A stretch of 64,000 nucleotides of DNA from Vicinamibacterales bacterium (GCA_036504215.1 DASXVO010000059.1:1-64000), one strand, 5' to 3'. Numbered from the stretch's first letter, positions 8,340-57,725 are shown. The notes: generated from the sequence alone by a model not told the origin. Numbers and translations: made by a program.

Positions 8340-8433
8340 GGTGAGGTGGCCGAGAGGCTGAAGGCGGCGGTTTGCTAAACCGTTGTACGGGCTAAAACCT
8401 GTACCCAGGGTTCGAATCCCTGCCTCACCGCCA
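8340..8433 (+). tRNA. tRNA-Ser (GCT)
   Basis: Acceptor GGTGAGG (8340-8346) pairs with CCTCACC (8423-8429), followed by discriminator G and an encoded CCA. The anticodon loop TTGCTAA gives anticodon GCT (8374-8376). A long variable arm typical of tRNA-Ser and a GTTCGAATC T-loop are present. Decodes AGC/AGU. Confidence 0.96.
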
Positions 8434-10808: not shown

Positions 10809-11799
10809 TGCGGAGTTGCTGGCCTTTACGGATCCGTTCTGCTCGTGGTGCTGGGCGAGTGAGCCCGCGCTGCTCACCTTGCGGGAACGGTACCGCGATC
10901 AACTCGTGGTTAGGTACATCATGGGCCGGCTCGTCAAGGACATGAGCCACTTCTTCGATGCGGCGAACGCGATCCGGGGCACCGCCGAGGTCGCTCCTCA
11001 CTGGCGGATGGTGTCGGAGCGTTCCGGCCAGCCGATTGACGAGCGCCTCATGCTCGACATCACGGACCCGCACTGGTCCACGTGGCCTGCGTGCATCGCG
11101 GTGAAGGCCGCGACGGCGCAGGGAACGACCGTCGGAGAGCGGTACTTACGGCGGCTTCGCCGAGCGGCACTGACCGAGCGTGCGCAGGTGCAGGACCTGG
11201 GGGTCCAGGTGGATCTCGCTCACCAAGTGCCTGGCCTCGACGTCGAAGCATTCCGGCGCGAGCTCGGGAGCGAGCGCCCCCGCGCCGCGTTCCATGAGGA
11301 CCTCGAACTCTGCGCCGCCCACGGAGTGACCGGCTTCCCGACGATGCTGTTTCGATCCGCGGCGCAAGCGGGCCAGGCGGACGCCGAGCCGGGCATCCTC
11401 GTCGGCGGTCACCGCTCGCTGGCCACGTACGAGCAAATCCTCGCTCAGGTGGCGCTACGACTGGTGCGGCACGAACCGCGATCAGTCGGCGAGCTCCTCG
11501 CCGAACACGGACCGCTGACCACACGCGAGATCGGCGAGATCACCGGCCAGGGCTCGAACATCGAGGAGTCGCTCCACAGGGCGGCGGCCGCAGGACGGAC
11601 CTCGTCTCACGAACTCCGCGGTGGTCGGCTGTGGTCCATGGCCGGTGATGCAGCGGCGCGGCAGTCGCTCAGCGGCGCGGCCTTCGTGTACCGTCCTCCC
11701 GACTTCCACGGAAAACTCCGTCAACCTCGCGCCACGGTTGCCGCCACGGGCCCCGTCTGGACGAGTACCGTGGCCCTGCATGGGGACTGGCCGTCCTGA
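10798..11799 (+). CDS. DsbA family protein (FrnE/SpxH-like thioredoxin fold)
   Basis: 333 aa, starting TDPFCSWCWASEP: the CxxC (CSWC, about residues 16-19) sits right after the first beta strand, as in DsbA/FrnE-type proteins. GFPTMLF provides the cis-Pro loop. No signal peptide, so it should act in the cytoplasm, possibly as an oxidoreductase or protease adaptor. Residues about 220-290 look like an added winged-helix-like tail (LTTREIGEITGQGSNIEESLHRAAAAG). GGAGG seven bases before the ATG supports the start. Co-transcribed with the preceding methyltransferase. Confidence 0.82.
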   Translation: MQGSAELLAFTDPFCSWCWASEPALLTLRERYRDQLVVRYIMGRLVKDMSHFFDAANAIRGTAEVAPHWRMVSERSGQPIDERLMLDITDPHWSTWPACIAVKAATAQGTTVGERYLRRLRRAALTERAQVQDLGVQVDLAHQVPGLDVEAFRRELGSERPRAAFHEDLELCAAHGVTGFPTMLFRSAAQAGQADAEPGILVGGHRSLATYEQILAQVALRLVRHEPRSVGELLAEHGPLTTREIGEITGQGSNIEESLHRAAAAGRTSSHELRGGRLWSMAGDAAARQSLSGAAFVYRPPDFHGKLRQPRATVAATGPVWTSTVALHGDWPS

Positions 11800-40811: not shown

Positions 40812-40885
40812 TGGGAGGTCGTTCAACGGTAGGACTCGTGGCTCTGGACCACGATATCGGGGTTCGAATCCCTGCCTCCCAGCCA
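40812..40885 (+). tRNA. tRNA-Gln (CTG)
   Basis: Acceptor TGGGAGG pairs with CCTCCCA (40875-40881), discriminator G, encoded CCA. The anticodon loop CTCTGGA gives CTG (40844-40846). The 3' 44 bases (40842-40885) recur with two mismatches at 43456-43499, marking this tRNA as an integration site. Confidence 0.96.
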
Positions 40886-41289
40886 TTCGACTCGCCTGCA
40901 TCGGGCGCTCGCTCATGGCGAGCCGTCCCCGTGGAGAATGGCCCTGAGCCTGTCGAAGGGCCAAACAACCCTTTACACATCAATCGCTTGCGACCAATTG
41001 GTCCGGCTTCCTGAATTTGTGGTTTTGACCACGTTATCGGGGTGCCTGCCGTGCGCCCCGGAGGTGTCGTCCTAACACCTTGTCGTTGAGCGGGTTATGG
41101 CCACATCGACGAGCCTGGTTCGCCGAGCCTCGGTTGGTGATCTAGACAGGAAGTTGACGAAAAGGTCGCGCCACGACGGTCTGATGACGGGCGGTTCAGC
41201 GCTTCCTGAGCGGGTCGGTGTCCCATCGCGCGATTGCGGTACATGCGATCGGGATCGGCAGGACCGGAGGCACGACCGTGTGGGTGGGC

Positions 41290-41620
41290 ACGTCCCCGTT
41301 CCCGACCAAGCGTCACTGGACAATGACATCCAGCACTTCGCCAGCAGCGCCCGAACCGACGACCGAAGCGGTCGGTGCGTGGCAGCGCGCGTTCAAACGA
41401 ACGTCTCGCCTTGCCCTGCGGCCTTCGTGATTGGCAGGCCTATCTCGGCGGTGGAGTTCTGCTACGACAACCATCCCGGGCCTGGGCGCCCGGTGCCGCC
41501 GGCAAGACGAAACAACACAGGTCGTCGCCACCGATGTGGTGTTTCCGCCTCAAGGCCACAACCCCAGCACAGTTGACGCAGTTTTGCCGACGATGGCATC
41601 GTCGTCGATGACATCGATCC
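41290..41620 (+). pseudogene. Decayed paralogue of the CcbP-like N-terminal domain of the gene at 43824
   Basis: In shifting frames the translation gives DNDIQHFASSARTDD, AFVIGRPISAVEFCYDN and TTQVVATDVVFP, matching DNDIQEVVRTAQTDD, GFVIGEPISVVELCYDG and TTHVVAACDVVLLP in the intact gene at 43824-45047. DNA similarity starts near 41200 upstream of the coding part. The TPR-like remainder is absent. The other bases between 40886 and 41655 show no gene. Confidence 0.65.
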
Positions 41621-41655
41621 ACGGCATCTACTCAAGGGTCGTGAGGGGAGGAGGG

Positions 41656-42384
41656 GTGAGCAATTCAGACACAGCCTGTGCCGAGGGGGCGCCGGCGCGG
41701 GAGATCATTGTCGATATTGTCGCGGATGTTCGCGAACGGCCGTCCGAGACGTTCGCCGCTCTCGAGTCTCGGTCCGACGTCGCGATGACTCTCGCAACGC
41801 TGGAATTCGGGGACTACTCCATAGCAGGGCAAGTGTCGTTCGAACGCAAGACAGCCGACGATCTGGGGCGGTCGATCATCGACGGCAGGCTCTTCCGACA
41901 AATGTCCAGGCTACGGCGGCTCGCGGACCGTCCGGTCCTGCTCGTTGAAGGCCTCCTGCCGCAGACGACGCCATCCGGCGTGCCTTGGCACGCCGTCCGT
42001 GGCGCACTGGTCAGCGTCGCGGTGATCTTCGGGGTTCCGATCCTCATGACAGGGTGTCCCCACGAGAGTGCCGAGATGATTGTCGCTGCGGGCCGTCAAC
42101 TGGCGCGCAGCTCAAGCCTCGGGTATGCGCGGCCAGGGTATCGGCCGAAGGGCTGGCGGCGACGTTCATCGTTCATCCTGCAGGGTCTACCCAATGTCGG
42201 TCCTGCGCGCGCGCAAGCACTGCTCGACTCGTTCGGTAGCGTCGCAGCGGTGATGGCCGCGGGCTTCGAGGGGCTGGCGAACGTCGACGGTATCGGCGAG
42301 CGGGTCGCCGCATCTATCGTTCGGGCACTCGGACCTGAGCCGGTCGCTGAACCGCAAACCCTCGTCAACCGCTTCCCCGACTGA
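41656..42384 (+). CDS. ERCC4-type (XPF/MUS81-like) nuclease with helix-hairpin-helix tail
   Basis: 242 aa. The ERCC4 nuclease core is complete: DVRERPSE, LEFGDYSIAG and the hallmark FERKTADDLGRSIIDGRL (GDY...ERKxxxD). The C-terminal 60 residues form tandem helix-hairpin-helix motifs (LPNVGPARAQALL, VDGIGERVAASIV) for DNA binding. The arrangement equals the nuclease half of archaeal/eukaryotic XPF, without a helicase. The GTG start at 41656 is preceded by GGGAGGAGG. It lies inside the tRNA-Gln island and probably cuts branched or flap DNA. Confidence 0.85.
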   Translation: MSNSDTACAEGAPAREIIVDIVADVRERPSETFAALESRSDVAMTLATLEFGDYSIAGQVSFERKTADDLGRSIIDGRLFRQMSRLRRLADRPVLLVEGLLPQTTPSGVPWHAVRGALVSVAVIFGVPILMTGCPHESAEMIVAAGRQLARSSSLGYARPGYRPKGWRRRSSFILQGLPNVGPARAQALLDSFGSVAAVMAAGFEGLANVDGIGERVAASIVRALGPEPVAEPQTLVNRFPD

Positions 42385-42452
42385 CGACGGAGCGGTCCCT
42401 TTGGGCGCGTGCACACCCTGCCCCGGCGACCGCTGAGGGCGTGAGGACGCGA

Positions 42453-42488
42453 CAACAGATCTGTTGCTTCATACAACAGATCTGTTGT
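42453..42488. promoter_or_regulatory. Double palindromic operator of hicAB
   Basis: CAACAGATCTGTTG occurs twice (42453-42466 and 42474-42487), each a perfect 14-bp palindrome, 21 bp centre to centre (two helix turns) and just before hicA. Probably bound by the HTH of HicB for autoregulation. Confidence 0.7.
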
Positions 42489-42500
42489 AAGCTGATCCTG

Positions 42501-42683
42501 ATGACGAGCCAGGAATTCAAGCGCTGGCTTGGAAGGCAGGGCTGCGCGTTCGAACCGGGTCACGGCGGGCACTTGATCGTGCGGCACGGCAACAAGATGT
42601 CCATCCTGCCGATGCACGGCAAGCACAAGGAGTTGGGCAGCGGCCTGGTGAAGAGCATCAAGAAGGACCTGGAGCTGAAGTAG
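42501..42683 (+). CDS. hicA: HicA family toxin (mRNA interferase)
   Basis: 60 aa, double-stranded-RNA-binding-like fold with the catalytic His region GHGGHLIVRHGNKMSILPMH and basic C-terminus KHKELGSGLVKSIKKDL. The length is typical. The start at 42501 fits the family; upstream codons lie in the operator. hicB follows 54 bp later. Expected to cleave mRNA when free of HicB. Confidence 0.88.
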   Translation: MTSQEFKRWLGRQGCAFEPGHGGHLIVRHGNKMSILPMHGKHKELGSGLVKSIKKDLELK

Positions 42684-42737
42684 GGCGATGACGAATGCTG
42701 CGTGGTGGTGGACAGCCGCGTCGGGTTGGGGGTTGCC

Positions 42738-43262
42738 ATGGACTATCCGGTGAAGTTGGAGCGAGACGACAACGACACGATCTTGGTCAGCTTTCCAGAC
42801 TTTCCGGAGGCACATACCTACGGCGGCAACATGGAAGACGCGTTGATGCATGCGCCGGATGCTCTCGCCACGGTGATTGACGCCTACATCAGGGACCGGC
42901 GAGGCATTCCCTCTCCCTCGGCGTGTGTGACGACACACCGAGTGACGGTGCCTGCGCTGGTCGAGGCGAAGATCCGTTTGTACGAGACGATGCGCGAGGC
43001 GAAGATCGGCAAGTCAGAGCTCGCGAAACGGCTCGACTGGCACCCTCCCCAGGTCGATCGACTGCTTGCCATGACCCACGGGTCAAAGCTGGAGCAACTT
43101 GAAACGGCGTTCCGGGCCATGGGCAAACGCCTCGTCATCGAGGTCGAGGACATGACGGTCCTTCGCGACCGACCGAAGTCGGCGCCGCGTCGGCGGCGAC
43201 AGAACTCCGCATCTCTACCGCGACACGCCACTCCCGACCGGAGGCGCCGTCCGAGGCGCTAG
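42738..43262 (+). CDS. hicB: HicB family antitoxin with HTH domain
   Basis: 174 aa. N-terminal HicB RNase H-like fold (YPVKLERDDNDTILVSFPDF, EAHTYGG, ATVIDAYIRDRR), then an XRE/Cro helix-turn-helix (KIGKSELAKRLDWHPPQVDRL, about 95-135). The last 30 residues are an unusual Arg-rich tail (RPKSAPRRRRQNS). Start chosen at MDYPVKLERDD by family comparison; a GTG at 42702 would add 12 residues. Neutralises HicA and represses the operon. Confidence 0.87.
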   Translation: MDYPVKLERDDNDTILVSFPDFPEAHTYGGNMEDALMHAPDALATVIDAYIRDRRGIPSPSACVTTHRVTVPALVEAKIRLYETMREAKIGKSELAKRLDWHPPQVDRLLAMTHGSKLEQLETAFRAMGKRLVIEVEDMTVLRDRPKSAPRRRRQNSASLPRHATPDRRRRPRR

Positions 43263-43823
43263 AGGGGACCGTCGCCCGGCTTCGTCATCTCGAAAAGAGC
43301 TTGACCTCGTCGGAGCAAGGGAGCGCCGATCTTGACACGATGTTGACAAACTGCGCCCGCGACGGCCCGTGTTCGCCCCAGCCAGCCCGAAGGTCGTTGC
43401 AGAAAACCCGAGGAAAACCGCGACGATCGGTCACCGGCGTCTCCGGGCTTTCTGCCTCTGGACCACGTTATCGGGGTTCAAATCCCTGCCTCCCAGCCAA
43501 AACAATCCCTTTAGATATAGGCACTTACGGCACCGACAAAGGGCAGGCTGTGCGTCCGCCCTGACACCACGTCATCGGGCGCGGCGTCAACTCCCTCAAG
43601 TTGTTGATGCTCTTCGCCTTGCCGGTCGTGCAAGTGGACTCTCGGCGCCCTGGTGAGACACGAATGAGACACGCTGGCACCGGACGGCCGAGGGTCTACG
43701 GAGTGCCGCCGGCGCCTCCACTTTGTCGTCGACCGCGGTCCACGCAGTCCTGAACGGGTCGGTGGTCTGTCGCACGACGATACCGATGGCGAGTAGGATC
43801 GGCGGAACCGGAGGCAGGACCTT
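43263..43823. other. 561-bp spacer with att-like tRNA-Gln fragments
   Basis: Holds the 44-bp tRNA-Gln 3' duplicate at 43456-43499 and a more decayed fragment near 43565. From about 43735 it begins to resemble the DNA at 41200 that precedes the decayed paralogue. No gene seen. Confidence 0.5.
43456..43499 (+). repeat. tRNA-Gln 3' fragment (att site copy)
   Basis: Matches tRNA-Gln positions 40842-40885 in 42 of 44 bases, through the CCA. The 5' half of the tRNA is absent, so it is not a functional tRNA gene. Confidence 0.8.
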
Positions 43824-45047
43824 TTGACTCGACGCATCACCGATCCCGACCACAGGTCGCCAGACAACGACATCCAGGAAGTCGTCAGAACTGCTCAAAC
43901 CGACGACGACGGGTTCCGAGCGTGGCACGGCTTCTTGAATGAACGGGTCGCGTTGCCATGCGATGGCTTCGTGATCGGCGAGCCTATCTCGGTCGTGGAG
44001 CTCTGCTACGACGGCAATCCTCGCCGCGGCTTGACGGCGCGATATCGCCGGTCGGACCAGACCACGCATGTCGTGGCGGCTTGTGATGTCGTCCTTCTAC
44101 CTGGCAGCGCGGGTGGAGACGGGCTCGCTGCCTATCGCCGATGGCTGGGGCTCGAGCCCTTCCACCCAGAAACCCTCAGTGTTGGCGCCGCTCGCCAGCA
44201 CAAGGCCACGGCGCGGGACCTCCAGTTGACCGGCCCTGTCGAACTCGTTCTCCTCTCGGTGAAGGAGACGGCCGCGCGTTGTCTGCTGCTTGGGACCCGG
44301 CGTGCCATCACCCTCCGCGCCACTAAGCTGTGGGACGTCGTGCCCGGCGAAATCGTCGTCGTGAAGCCGCGCAAGCAATGGAGCTACGCCGGACAGCCAT
44401 ATCTTTCGGGCGAAGTGCAGTCGGCGCGGCTGGAGGTATCCGCGCTCGACCTCGTGCCCCTGAAGTTGAATGACGAGGGCGTGTGGGATCCGTGCGAGCA
44501 GTACTGGGGCGAGCCGGATGAACCGCTCGACGAGTGGGCGAAACCGATCATCGCTCGTGGCGAGAGACGCGAATTCGAGATGGAGCAGGTGCTGCCGGGC
44601 ACCGACCCCGAGGACCCAGAGTCCGACCCGATCACCGAATCGAACGATCTCAAAGACGCCGGCGACGTTCGCGGTGCGCTGAGAATACTGATGGGACTGT
44701 TCCAGGCCGACCTGCGCTGCCTCGACGCTCATGCGCATCTCGGCAACCTGGCATTCGAGCACGACCCCGAATTGGCGATTCGTCACTACGAAGTGGGCGT
44801 GCAGATCGGTGAGTTGTCGTTGCCCTCCGGCTTCGACGGTGTTTTGCCGTGGGGCGTCATCGACAACCGGCCCTTCCTTCGCTGCCTTCACGGATTCGGA
44901 CTCTGCTGTTGGCGCCTACGCCGATTCGACGAAGCCGAACGTGTCTTCGTTCGGATGCTCTGGCTCAACCCATCGGACAACCAGGGTGTCCGATTCCTGG
45001 TCGACGCCGTCCGCGCGCGAAGTCCCTGGGTTCCAGACAAGATGTGA
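43824..45047 (+). CDS. CcbP-like domain fused to TPR-type repeats
   Basis: 407 aa, no signal peptide. N-terminal part (about 10-110: PDNDIQEVVRTAQTDDDG, GFVIGEPISVVELCYDGNPR, AAYRRWLGLEP) resembles calcium-binding CcbP-like proteins. The C-terminal half has TPR-like helices (DAHAHLGNLAFEHDPELAIRHY; FGLCCWRLRRFDEAERVF). It starts with TTG behind GGAGG. It is followed by a second CcbP-like gene and the 611-aa protein. A decayed copy of its N-terminus lies across the island at 41290. Function unknown. Confidence 0.7.
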   Translation: MTRRITDPDHRSPDNDIQEVVRTAQTDDDGFRAWHGFLNERVALPCDGFVIGEPISVVELCYDGNPRRGLTARYRRSDQTTHVVAACDVVLLPGSAGGDGLAAYRRWLGLEPFHPETLSVGAARQHKATARDLQLTGPVELVLLSVKETAARCLLLGTRRAITLRATKLWDVVPGEIVVVKPRKQWSYAGQPYLSGEVQSARLEVSALDLVPLKLNDEGVWDPCEQYWGEPDEPLDEWAKPIIARGERREFEMEQVLPGTDPEDPESDPITESNDLKDAGDVRGALRILMGLFQADLRCLDAHAHLGNLAFEHDPELAIRHYEVGVQIGELSLPSGFDGVLPWGVIDNRPFLRCLHGFGLCCWRLRRFDEAERVFVRMLWLNPSDNQGVRFLVDAVRARSPWVPDKM

Positions 45048-45143
45048 GTAGTTCGTGGCTGGAGGCGCGATTGGTGGCGAGCCGACCAGTGAAGCGGCAG
45101 CGACGTCAGTGGTCGGTTGGGTGGAATCTCGGAGGAGCGACGC

Positions 45144-45524
45144 ATGGCAGGATCGCCCAACGCGGGATGCGCTCGGAAACCACATCCCCGCACGTGGCCT
45201 ACGGCTGTCCTCGACCGCCTGATCGAGGAAGCGATCGTCGATGCCTACGGCGAGTCCGAACAGACGGTCGGGTTCTTCACGATGCTGGAGGATCACCTCG
45301 CGGTGCCGTTCGCGACGAACGTGCTCGATACGGCTGTCATCGTCGAACGTGTCGACTTGACGGATGACGAGCGCATCGTCGCCGTCTGCAGGCGTGGACG
45401 TTCACGCCAGCGGATCGGGATTCTCGACCTGCCGATTCCCAACCCGTCACCCGACGGCGCGGAGTGGATCGAGGCCTACCGACGTTGGTCGGGCCATCGC
45501 GCCAGCAGAGAAGAGGACGAGTAG
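45144..45524 (+). CDS. CcbP-like calcium-binding family protein
   Basis: 126 aa. IEEAIVDAYGESEQTVGFF, MLEDHLAVPFATNVL and WIEAYRRW follow the pattern of small CcbP-type (Calci_bind_CcbP) proteins, rich in acidic residues. GGAGGAG six bases before the ATG at 45144. The 611-aa gene follows after 6 bp, so they share an operon. Role uncertain; the family name derives from a cyanobacterial Ca-binding protein. Confidence 0.7.
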   Translation: MAGSPNAGCARKPHPRTWPTAVLDRLIEEAIVDAYGESEQTVGFFTMLEDHLAVPFATNVLDTAVIVERVDLTDDERIVAVCRRGRSRQRIGILDLPIPNPSPDGAEWIEAYRRWSGHRASREEDE

Positions 45525-47495: not shown

Positions 47496-47825
47496 TCAGA
47501 GCAATGGCCGGAGCGCAGCCAGGAACTCCGGCACCTTGTTCCGCGCGACGTCCCACAGTTCCTCGGCGTCAATCGTCCAGCAGCCGTGCGCCAGCAGGTT
47601 CCGCAATCCCACGATCTTGCGCCATGGAACCTCCGGCAGGCGCCGCTTCCACTCGTCCGGCAGACGGGCCGCCCCCTCGCCAATGATGAACCGCTGGCGC
47701 TCCACGGCGGCGCGCTTCTCGTCGTTGGCAGCGAAGACCTGGAACGTCACGTCGTCGGTGTAGCGGAGGATGGCTTCGCCCGCCGCGACGACATCCGCGA
47801 TGTAGAGCTGGGCATCACGCGACAC
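47496..47825 (-). CDS. hepT: HepT-like HEPN toxin (DUF86), Tyr replaced by Cys
   Basis: 109 aa, all-helical HEPN domain (SRDAQLYIADVVAAGEAILRY; VGLRNLLAHGCW). The RNase motif Rx4H is present as RNLLAH. In the well-studied HepT the motif is RX4HXY and the Tyr is AMPylated by MntA; here that position is Cys. Start GTG at 47825 (AGGA 8 bases upstream); a TTG at 47831 is also possible. Overlaps mntA. Confidence 0.85.
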   Translation of the reverse strand: MSRDAQLYIADVVAAGEAILRYTDDVTFQVFAANDEKRAAVERQRFIIGEGAARLPDEWKRRLPEVPWRKIVGLRNLLAHGCWTIDAEELWDVARNKVPEFLAALRPLL

Positions 47826-48108
47826 GGACAAGATCCTGGTCGATGAGCGGACGGAGACGGGGCTTGATCCCTTTCGCCGTCAGAACATCCACCCGGCGAC
47901 CGAGGAGATCCTCGAGGAAGATGAGCAAGCCCATGTGGCGGTCGAAGGTCGTCGGCCCCTCGAATTCGACGAGGACATCGACGTCGCTGTCGGGTCCAGC
48001 CTCGTCGCGAGCCACCGATCCGAACAGCGATAGCGAGCTCACGCCGAAGCGTTGGACGATCTCGTCCCGGCGGGCTGAAACCAAGGCGATGACATCCGCG
48101 CGTCGCAT
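47815..48108 (-). CDS. mntA: MntA-like minimal nucleotidyltransferase antitoxin
   Basis: 97 aa. Nucleotidyltransferase core LSLFGSVARDEAGPDSDVDV with GS-x10-DxD, and a third acidic residue likely in RRVDVL. MntA proteins neutralise HepT by adding AMP units. First gene of the two-gene operon; its 3' end overlaps hepT by 11 bases. No strong ribosome-binding site. Confidence 0.88.
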   Translation of the reverse strand: MRRADVIALVSARRDEIVQRFGVSSLSLFGSVARDEAGPDSDVDVLVEFEGPTTFDRHMGLLIFLEDLLGRRVDVLTAKGIKPRLRPLIDQDLVRVA

Positions 48109-57171: not shown

Positions 57172-57489
57172 TCATCCGTCTCGACGGTCCCACGGCGTCG
57201 ATTCCCATCCCCGAATGACGCCATTGTCGCCGCAGACCGGGCAGCCCCACTCGACGGCCTCCCCGTCGTCGAGTCGCGCAACGATGGTGCCCAGGCAGCG
57301 CTTCCGGCTCGGGCTTCGTCGACACGTCACGTTCGTTTCGTCGTACTCGTCCGGCGGGTGGCTCGTGACCCACGCGACAATTGAGGCGAGGAACAGCGCG
57401 AGGTTCAGCGCAGGACCGGGGATGTTCGCCGGAAAGGAGCCGTGCTCGTCCAGGAAATGCGTCAGGTCGGTGATCCACGTGTCTCCCAT
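57172..57489 (-). CDS. Conserved hypothetical protein with C-terminal zinc-ribbon-like cysteines
   Basis: 105 aa. MGDTWITDLTHFLDEHG and LNLALFLASIVAWVTSHPP, then VTCRRSPSRKRCLG and WGCPVCGDNGVIRGW (four Cys). I recall similar small proteins in other soil bacteria but no function. GGGAG lies about eight bases upstream of the ATG. It sits in a decaying region behind a helix-turn-helix remnant. Confidence 0.6.
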   Translation of the reverse strand: MGDTWITDLTHFLDEHGSFPANIPGPALNLALFLASIVAWVTSHPPDEYDETNVTCRRSPSRKRCLGTIVARLDDGEAVEWGCPVCGDNGVIRGWESTPWDRRDG

Positions 57490-57725
57490 CGGCCGTCTCT
57501 CCCTTCCATCTCGGAGCGGGTCGGCGCACCGCTGCACGTTGCCCCGCTCGGTCTTCGTCTCGCCCTTCCGCGTTGCATCATCCGAACGCGGCGCCTGAGG
57601 ACGCGCGCGTGGCACAGTTCCTCGCGTTCGCACGCGGTGTAGATCGTATCCTTGCTCACCTTGAGCAGTGCTTGCGTCGATGTCGCGCGCTTGCCAGCGA
57701 GCACCGGTTCCTGCCAATCGTCCAA
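57490..57725 (-). pseudogene. Excisionase-like helix-turn-helix remnant
   Basis: ALLKVSKDTIYTACEREELC followed by HARV resembles the recognition part of excisionase/MerR-like HTH proteins (pattern VSKxTVYxACExGEL). Flanking residues do not fit a complete protein, so it is read as a remnant. Confidence 0.35.

Follow-up and report, generated by a model that had tools for sequence, protein, structure and literature searches.

Behind a tRNA-Gln gene of an uncultured Vicinamibacterales bacterium, of the Acidobacteria group, stands a second copy of the 3′ end of the same tRNA, with a few small genes between the two. What placed these pieces there, how many insertions do they record, and which enzyme would have carried them out? 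These questions were addressed in a window of 64,000 nucleotides (GCA_036504215.1, DASXVO010000059.1:1-64000), which is the whole stretch of DNA that was analysed.

The tRNA-Gln locus of the window

A sequence-only reading of the window had proposed that the last 44 bases of the tRNA are duplicated downstream. The duplication was confirmed at exactly the proposed position, with two mismatches between the copies (Table 1), and self-comparison of the window returned a block of 47 bp (43453-43499) that is 94% identical to the tRNA. A 39-base degenerate core pattern has two matches only in the window, where none is expected from 100 shuffles. The block of identity begins in the anticodon loop and reaches the 3′ terminus of the tRNA, as is typical of the att site of a tyrosine integrase. 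All partial copies, in the window and in many relatives, span about positions 31-74 of the tRNA and begin in the anticodon loop. Elsewhere in the window the best 44-mer match is 23/44. Dispersal of the fragments over the genome, which the same reading had named as the observation that would speak against an array, was rejected: no further 44-bp copy lies beyond the tRNA-Gln locus in the 5.9-Mb genome, and the remaining matches are short or weaker, one of them being the T-arm of a tRNA-Ser at 8408. The resident tRNA-Gln has the pair T27-A43, whereas most relatives have A27-T43. The displaced core retains T43 and a T-loop A (TTCAAATCC) also seen in cores of a congener (G001), from which it follows that the two window copies differ in origin or age.

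Table 1. Features of the tRNA-Gln array in the window (positions counted from the first base of the window).
Feature	Position	Strand	Basis or remark
tRNA-Gln(CTG)	40812-40885	+	ARAGORN, Rfam
att core, 3′ 44 nt of tRNA-Gln(CTG) from the anticodon loop onward	40842-40885	+	
Insert of about 77 bp separating the tRNA from the left end of element 1	40886-40962		Alignment
Core-like motif TGTGG-TTTTGA-CCACGTTATCGGGGT, inside the left end of element 1	41018-41043	+	
Degenerate class B left arm motif TAGACAGGAAGTTGAC, element 1	41143-41158	+	+180, 77-bp insertion removed
Decayed copy of 43748-44020 (start of the 407-aa gene of element 2)	41204-41476	+	73% identical
ORF with ERCC4 nuclease domain (residues 99-218) and HHH motif	41431-42384	+	Pfam
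Palindrome CAACAGATCTGTTG, two copies ahead of hicA	42453-42487		
HicA toxin	42500-42683	+	PF07927, E 2e-9
HicB antitoxin	42738-43262	+	PF15919, E 1e-8
Degenerate class B right arm motif TTGACACGATGTTGAC, element 1	43332-43347	+	124 bp before distal core
Second att core (displaced 44-bp tRNA-Gln 3′ end), where elements 1 and 2 join	43456-43499	+	
ACTTACGGCAC	43523-43533	+	Common to class A left ends, about 23 bp past the core
Core-like piece, conserved position inside the left end of element 2	43565-43581	+	
Exact class A left arm motif GAGACACGAATGAGACAC, element 2	43655-43672	+	155 bases from core
407-aa protein, weak TPR signal, first gene of element 2	43824-45047	+	
CcbP-like protein	45117-45524	+	PF11535, E 4.5e-6

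The two cores bound an element of 2.6 kb (element 1). The insertion that separates its left end from the tRNA contains a REP-like 21-mer that recurs elsewhere in the genome, on several contigs. The cargo had been read as a nuclease with a toxin-antitoxin pair, and all three genes are supported by Pfam. The ERCC4 ORF is closest to Hef/XPF nuclease modules and has the ERK-x3-D motif; the palindromes ahead of hicA are probably HicB operators, as a prediction. Integration or transfer genes were not found among the window cargo, which consists of the nuclease, the toxin-antitoxin pair and unknown families, and PADLOC made no assignment for the cargo of elements 1 and 2. The decayed copy, within element 1, of the gene start of element 2 suggests recombination between the elements.

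Element 2 begins right after the second core and has a left end only, no right end being found in the window. The G+C content is about 0.63-0.64 across 41-45 kb, against 0.65-0.68 on the flanks, and drops again in the gene starting at 49.5 kb. With the arms degenerate in element 1, and no right end recognisable for element 2, both copies are probably no longer mobile. These features and the insertion at the junction make them look old and decayed. Just past the array, a HepT/MntA-type toxin-antitoxin pair is encoded on the minus strand (47496-48108); PADLOC gave a weak match for the neighbouring 611-aa protein and candidate-family matches for the MntA-like protein. Farther on, a short gene region at 57175-57567 has about 82% protein identity to the neighbour of a tRNA-Gln integrase in G006 (L106 5301-5873).

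Integrases and end motifs at the tRNA-Gln of relatives

The locus was first traced in the order via gltX, and then by searching with the tRNA sequence; most of the relatives are fragmented metagenome drafts. Tandem cores occur in G007, G075, G041, G001 and others, with more copies in G109 and G039. In G007, an intact tRNA-Gln is followed within 13.6 kb by four further cores or remnants of cores. The proposed comparison of empty and occupied sites gave many occupied sites and no empty one among the relatives, whose downstream neighbours are not conserved by synteny comparison. Tyrosine integrases with the same core, also proposed as a check, were found in other genomes. In G075, G006, G024 (two contigs) and G146, an integrase of about 400-520 residues is encoded directly downstream of tRNA-Gln, in antisense orientation, its C-terminus being encoded by the complement of the tRNA. 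Broken or partial copies are present in G031, G057, G091 and G088, and related integrases reside at tRNA-Glu, tRNA-His and tRNA-Val.

The contig of the window is devoid of PF00589 matches, the six matches of the genome being all on other contigs, and no homologue of the tRNA-Gln integrases was detected in the genome at the thresholds used. The absence of an integrase asserted from the sequence is thereby confirmed. Without an integrase of their own, the window elements were rejected as autonomous IMEs, ICEs or prophages at a tRNA. A phage or plasmid origin of the integrase was also discarded, as there was no plasmid match and one marginal viral match of 27 residues. An integron or CALIN was rejected because the boundaries are 44-bp tRNA copies and the autonomous integrase scores 37 bits, where 265 are required of an integron integrase.

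Two classes of paired direct repeats flank the cores, GAGACAC-TGAGACA (class A) and TTGAC-CTTGAC (class B). The class A left motif GAGACACGAATGAGACAC usually starts 154-156 bp after the core, with exceptions at 75-76 bp (three cases), 58 bp (one) and 163 bp (one), and the class A right motif GAGACACAATGAGACA starts 122-124 bp ahead of the next core. In class B, the left motif of integrase-less elements, TTGACGAAAAGTTGAC, is at +180 to +182, integrase-bearing left ends have a TTGACAAAAACTTGAC-like sequence at +88 or +163, and the right motif is TTGACAAAAACTTGAC-like and again 122-124 bp ahead of the next core. The 122-124-bp spacing before the core holds for 15 right ends, window included, and that of 154-156 (A) or 180-182 (B) after the core for most left ends, the motif classes having been defined on the same sequences, except for a scan of about 85,000 genomes. 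The spacing and the direct-repeat form match those usual for the arm-type sites of tyrosine integrases, and the paired repeats look like putative arm-type sites.

Allowing at most one mismatch, the class A 18-mer occurs at seven places in 6 of 149 genomes, window counted, and the reversed control at none. The scan of about 85,000 species genomes yielded nine matches. Five are in Acidobacteria, all of which follow a copy of the tRNA-Gln 3′ end (one truncated to the last bases), and the remaining four, outside Acidobacteria, have no such copy before them. Viral contigs contain four matches to GAGACACGAATGAGACAC, none with a tRNA core, and no class A right end.

In complete units both ends belong to the same class, which is B in the window, element 4 of G007, G039 and G075, and A in G109 and G038. 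Discordant ends delimit one 16-kb interval (G006:C89), with class A on the left and class B on the right. The motif class also tracks the integrase clade, the motif being near the 3′ end of the integrase gene: TTGACA/TTGAAA pairs go with an integrase group about 60-80% identical, and GAGACA pairs with the clade that includes G093, G125 and the broken integrase of G008. G008 has a class A left end at tRNA-Gln with this broken integrase 4 kb away, and is the only instance of a class A integrase on the contig of a class A tRNA-Gln end; an intact one at tRNA-Gln was not found among the relatives. A third type of right end, with a GACACCACCCAAACTACTCCTTGCG-like sequence ahead of the core, was observed in G004 and at the distal cores of G055, G041 and G001. 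In G004, of the same genus, it closes a 2.5-kb element (L048 464-3022) that has one 572-aa ORF without a Pfam match.

Two smaller pieces, at 41034-41050 and about 43565, had been taken for decayed att sites left by several rounds of integration. Both sequences are present. The 17-mer at 41027-41043 matches the tRNA-Gln core without mismatch, and there are five 17-mer matches with at most three mismatches where 0.7 are expected. The piece at 43565-43581 is just 76% alike to the core and weak alone; it was credited because the matching left-end position in five related elements carries a CCACGTTATCGG-like sequence. Among the remaining class A left ends, this CCACGTTATCGG-like sequence has an invariant CCAC. 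With the 77-bp insertion taken out, the two pieces are about 65 bp inside their respective left ends. A similar core-like sequence is present in the class B ends of G007 and G039, but inverted. Given their conserved position inside the left ends of relatives, the pieces are probably conserved parts of the elements and not additional att sites, so that the array would show two elements rather than four rounds; repeated integration at tRNA-Gln is retained. As a separate observation, the core-like motif consists of an anticodon-stem-like inverted repeat and TTATCGGGG, at a conserved place inside integrase-less left ends, and is also found in L063 at about 11018-11033 (inverted) and, in L105 and L113, downstream of distal cores.

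Integrase-less units and a probable source of the integrase

G109 has an integrase-less class A element, of about 3.0 kb, which encodes a DUF7686/DUF7713 protein, an ERCC4 nuclease, and PIN-like and UPF0175 proteins. It is present end to end in G038, from a different family, with 88% identity; the G038 copy crosses a contig break with an identical overlap of 127 bp. G007, from the genus of G109, has most of the element at 96% identity, and so does G087 at 80-89%. Between G038 and either G007 or G109, the ERCC4 genes share 96% of their positions (93% of third codon positions), compared with 68% for gltX of these genomes (54-55% of third codon positions). Likewise, G007 and G039 have a class B cassette in common, with 84.6% identity over 3.5 kb, for 73.8% in gltX. 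This cassette (L063 11225-13213; L110) has essentially one gene, encoding a Schlafen-group-3 helicase (PF09848, E 1e-80).

As the identity of the elements is far above that of gltX across families, such units have moved between families in integrase-less form. Related units without an integrase have both ends intact and have passed from one family to another; the absence of an integrase is thus a lasting property of the element family and need not denote dead remnants. Besides mobilisation in trans, cis mobilisation with a neighbour that was later lost, or an unseen vehicle, may account for the transfer.

Repeated site-specific integration at tRNA-Gln is a well-supported reading of these sequences, in view of the duplicated core, the matching arm-like motifs, the same layout in relatives and the integrases at the same tRNA elsewhere. 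The locus is most likely a tandem accretion of cis-mobilizable-type elements, for which an integrase would be served in trans. Their shared end signals, and movement between families without an enzyme of their own, suggest that they probably borrow the integrase of other elements. Each element has the 44-bp copy of the tRNA 3′ end and paired direct repeats at fixed distances on both sides, which would be the arm-type sites recognised by one group of tyrosine integrases. A related element, co-resident or transient, and using the same tRNA in other genomes, would produce the integrase. This enzyme would recognise core and arms, and insert or excise the cassette at the anticodon loop of tRNA-Gln. 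Integration would restore the tRNA and leave the displaced 3′ end downstream as a site for the next element, and repeated insertion would pile up cassettes. The cargo carried along is small, namely an ERCC4 nuclease, toxin-antitoxin pairs, or one large gene. Counting against this reading are the failure to find an empty site, the unconserved downstream neighbours, the missing right end of element 2, the mixed end classes of G006:C89, and the lack of an intact class A integrase at tRNA-Gln among the relatives.

The elements could instead be ordinary decayed remnants, which entered with their own integrase and lost it later, in a plain CIME accretion devoid of trans mobilisation. The degenerate arms of element 1 and the lack of a recognisable right end in element 2 would fit this scenario. 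So would the left ends of G006:C89 and G008, which retain a little sequence resembling the C-terminus of the integrase, as expected after internal deletion; the window has no such sequence beyond the tRNA complement. This explanation is nevertheless judged unlikely, because complete integrase-less units with intact arms are common to different families with an identity far above that of a host gene.

That the array arose by local tandem duplication, including the tRNA 3′ end, through ordinary recombination without site-specific integration is very improbable: the similarity of 41204-41476 to 43748-44020 has a spacing (2544) near that of the cores (2614), but the two left ends are of different motif classes, the core copies of unrelated genomes always begin at the same anticodon-loop base, and integrases are present at the same tRNA.

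A mobility driven by the ERCC4 nuclease, by a homing-like cut at the tRNA core, could be imagined from its distribution. The closest clade (at least 72% identity to the query) resides in tRNA-Gln elements in 6 of 6 cases (G007 twice, G109, G038, G087 and G121), and the window has a more distant member. It is scarcely credible, since the class B elements of G007 (element 4) and G039 have the same ends without ERCC4, homologues 54-60% identical to those of the cassettes are away from tRNA-Gln, and the ends fit the logic of tyrosine integrases. These homologues form a second clade of bacterial ERCC4-HHH nucleases (L200-L209; genomes G064, G011, G023, G127, G144, G098, G069, G065, G091 and G101). 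Occurring elsewhere, and absent from the class B cassettes, ERCC4 was rejected as a universal marker of the elements. It was not found in viral contigs.

Relation to known mobile elements

Islands without an integrase tend to be dismissed as dead. Here, visible sites at fixed distances, two site classes tracking two integrase clades, and integrase-less units shared between families render trans mobilisation directly testable. They also provide a sequence signature with which such cassettes can be detected when no integrase is present, and an ERCC4/XPF-type nuclease is added to the recurrent cargo. A literature search on such tandem arrays in Acidobacteria gave no paper.

In the Dehalococcoides ssrA arrays, numerous islands stand in tandem, delimited by repeats of the 3′ end of a single RNA gene, and 15 of these islands have no integration module and were proposed to be cis-mobilizable (PMC3146451). 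There, the target is a tmRNA and the enzyme a serine recombinase, whereas tRNA-Gln and tyrosine integrases are involved here; unlike the ssrA islands, the present units are compact (2.6-3.5 kb) with arm-like sites on both sides. CIMEs lack integration and transfer genes, retain attL and attR, and can stand in tandem at one target gene (PMC5704250). Element 1 fits this description, with a core of the attL/attR type at both ends and neither integration nor transfer genes, and element 2 does so at its left end only. CIMEs were described as decay products moved together with a neighbour (PMC5704250), whereas the integrase-less units examined here persist and cross families, which suggests that they may have been mobilised repeatedly.

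In the tRNA-gene islands collected in Islander, the split tRNA is restored and a displaced 3′ fragment is left behind (PMC4383910). The tRNA is likewise restored here and its fragment displaced, and the autonomous relatives have their integrase beside the tRNA, but the islands of the window are stacked and without integrase. CALIN and MITEs are units without a recombinase of their own that are moved by one encoded elsewhere (PMC11389934). By contrast, no attC, integron integrase or transposon ends are involved here, the boundary being the tRNA 3′ end with arm-like repeats. We would propose tentatively, and with somewhat less than an even chance, that the units form a cassette system of their own, an analogue of integron cassettes on a tRNA gene. 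Small, integrase-less and endowed with a full attP-like site of tRNA core and both arms, they would be moved in trans by one group of tyrosine integrases, stack in tandem at tRNA-Gln within this bacterial order, and spread toxin-antitoxin and defence-type cargo between families. Set against these known systems, the kind of element is one already described, and the compact cassette family is a new variant of it.
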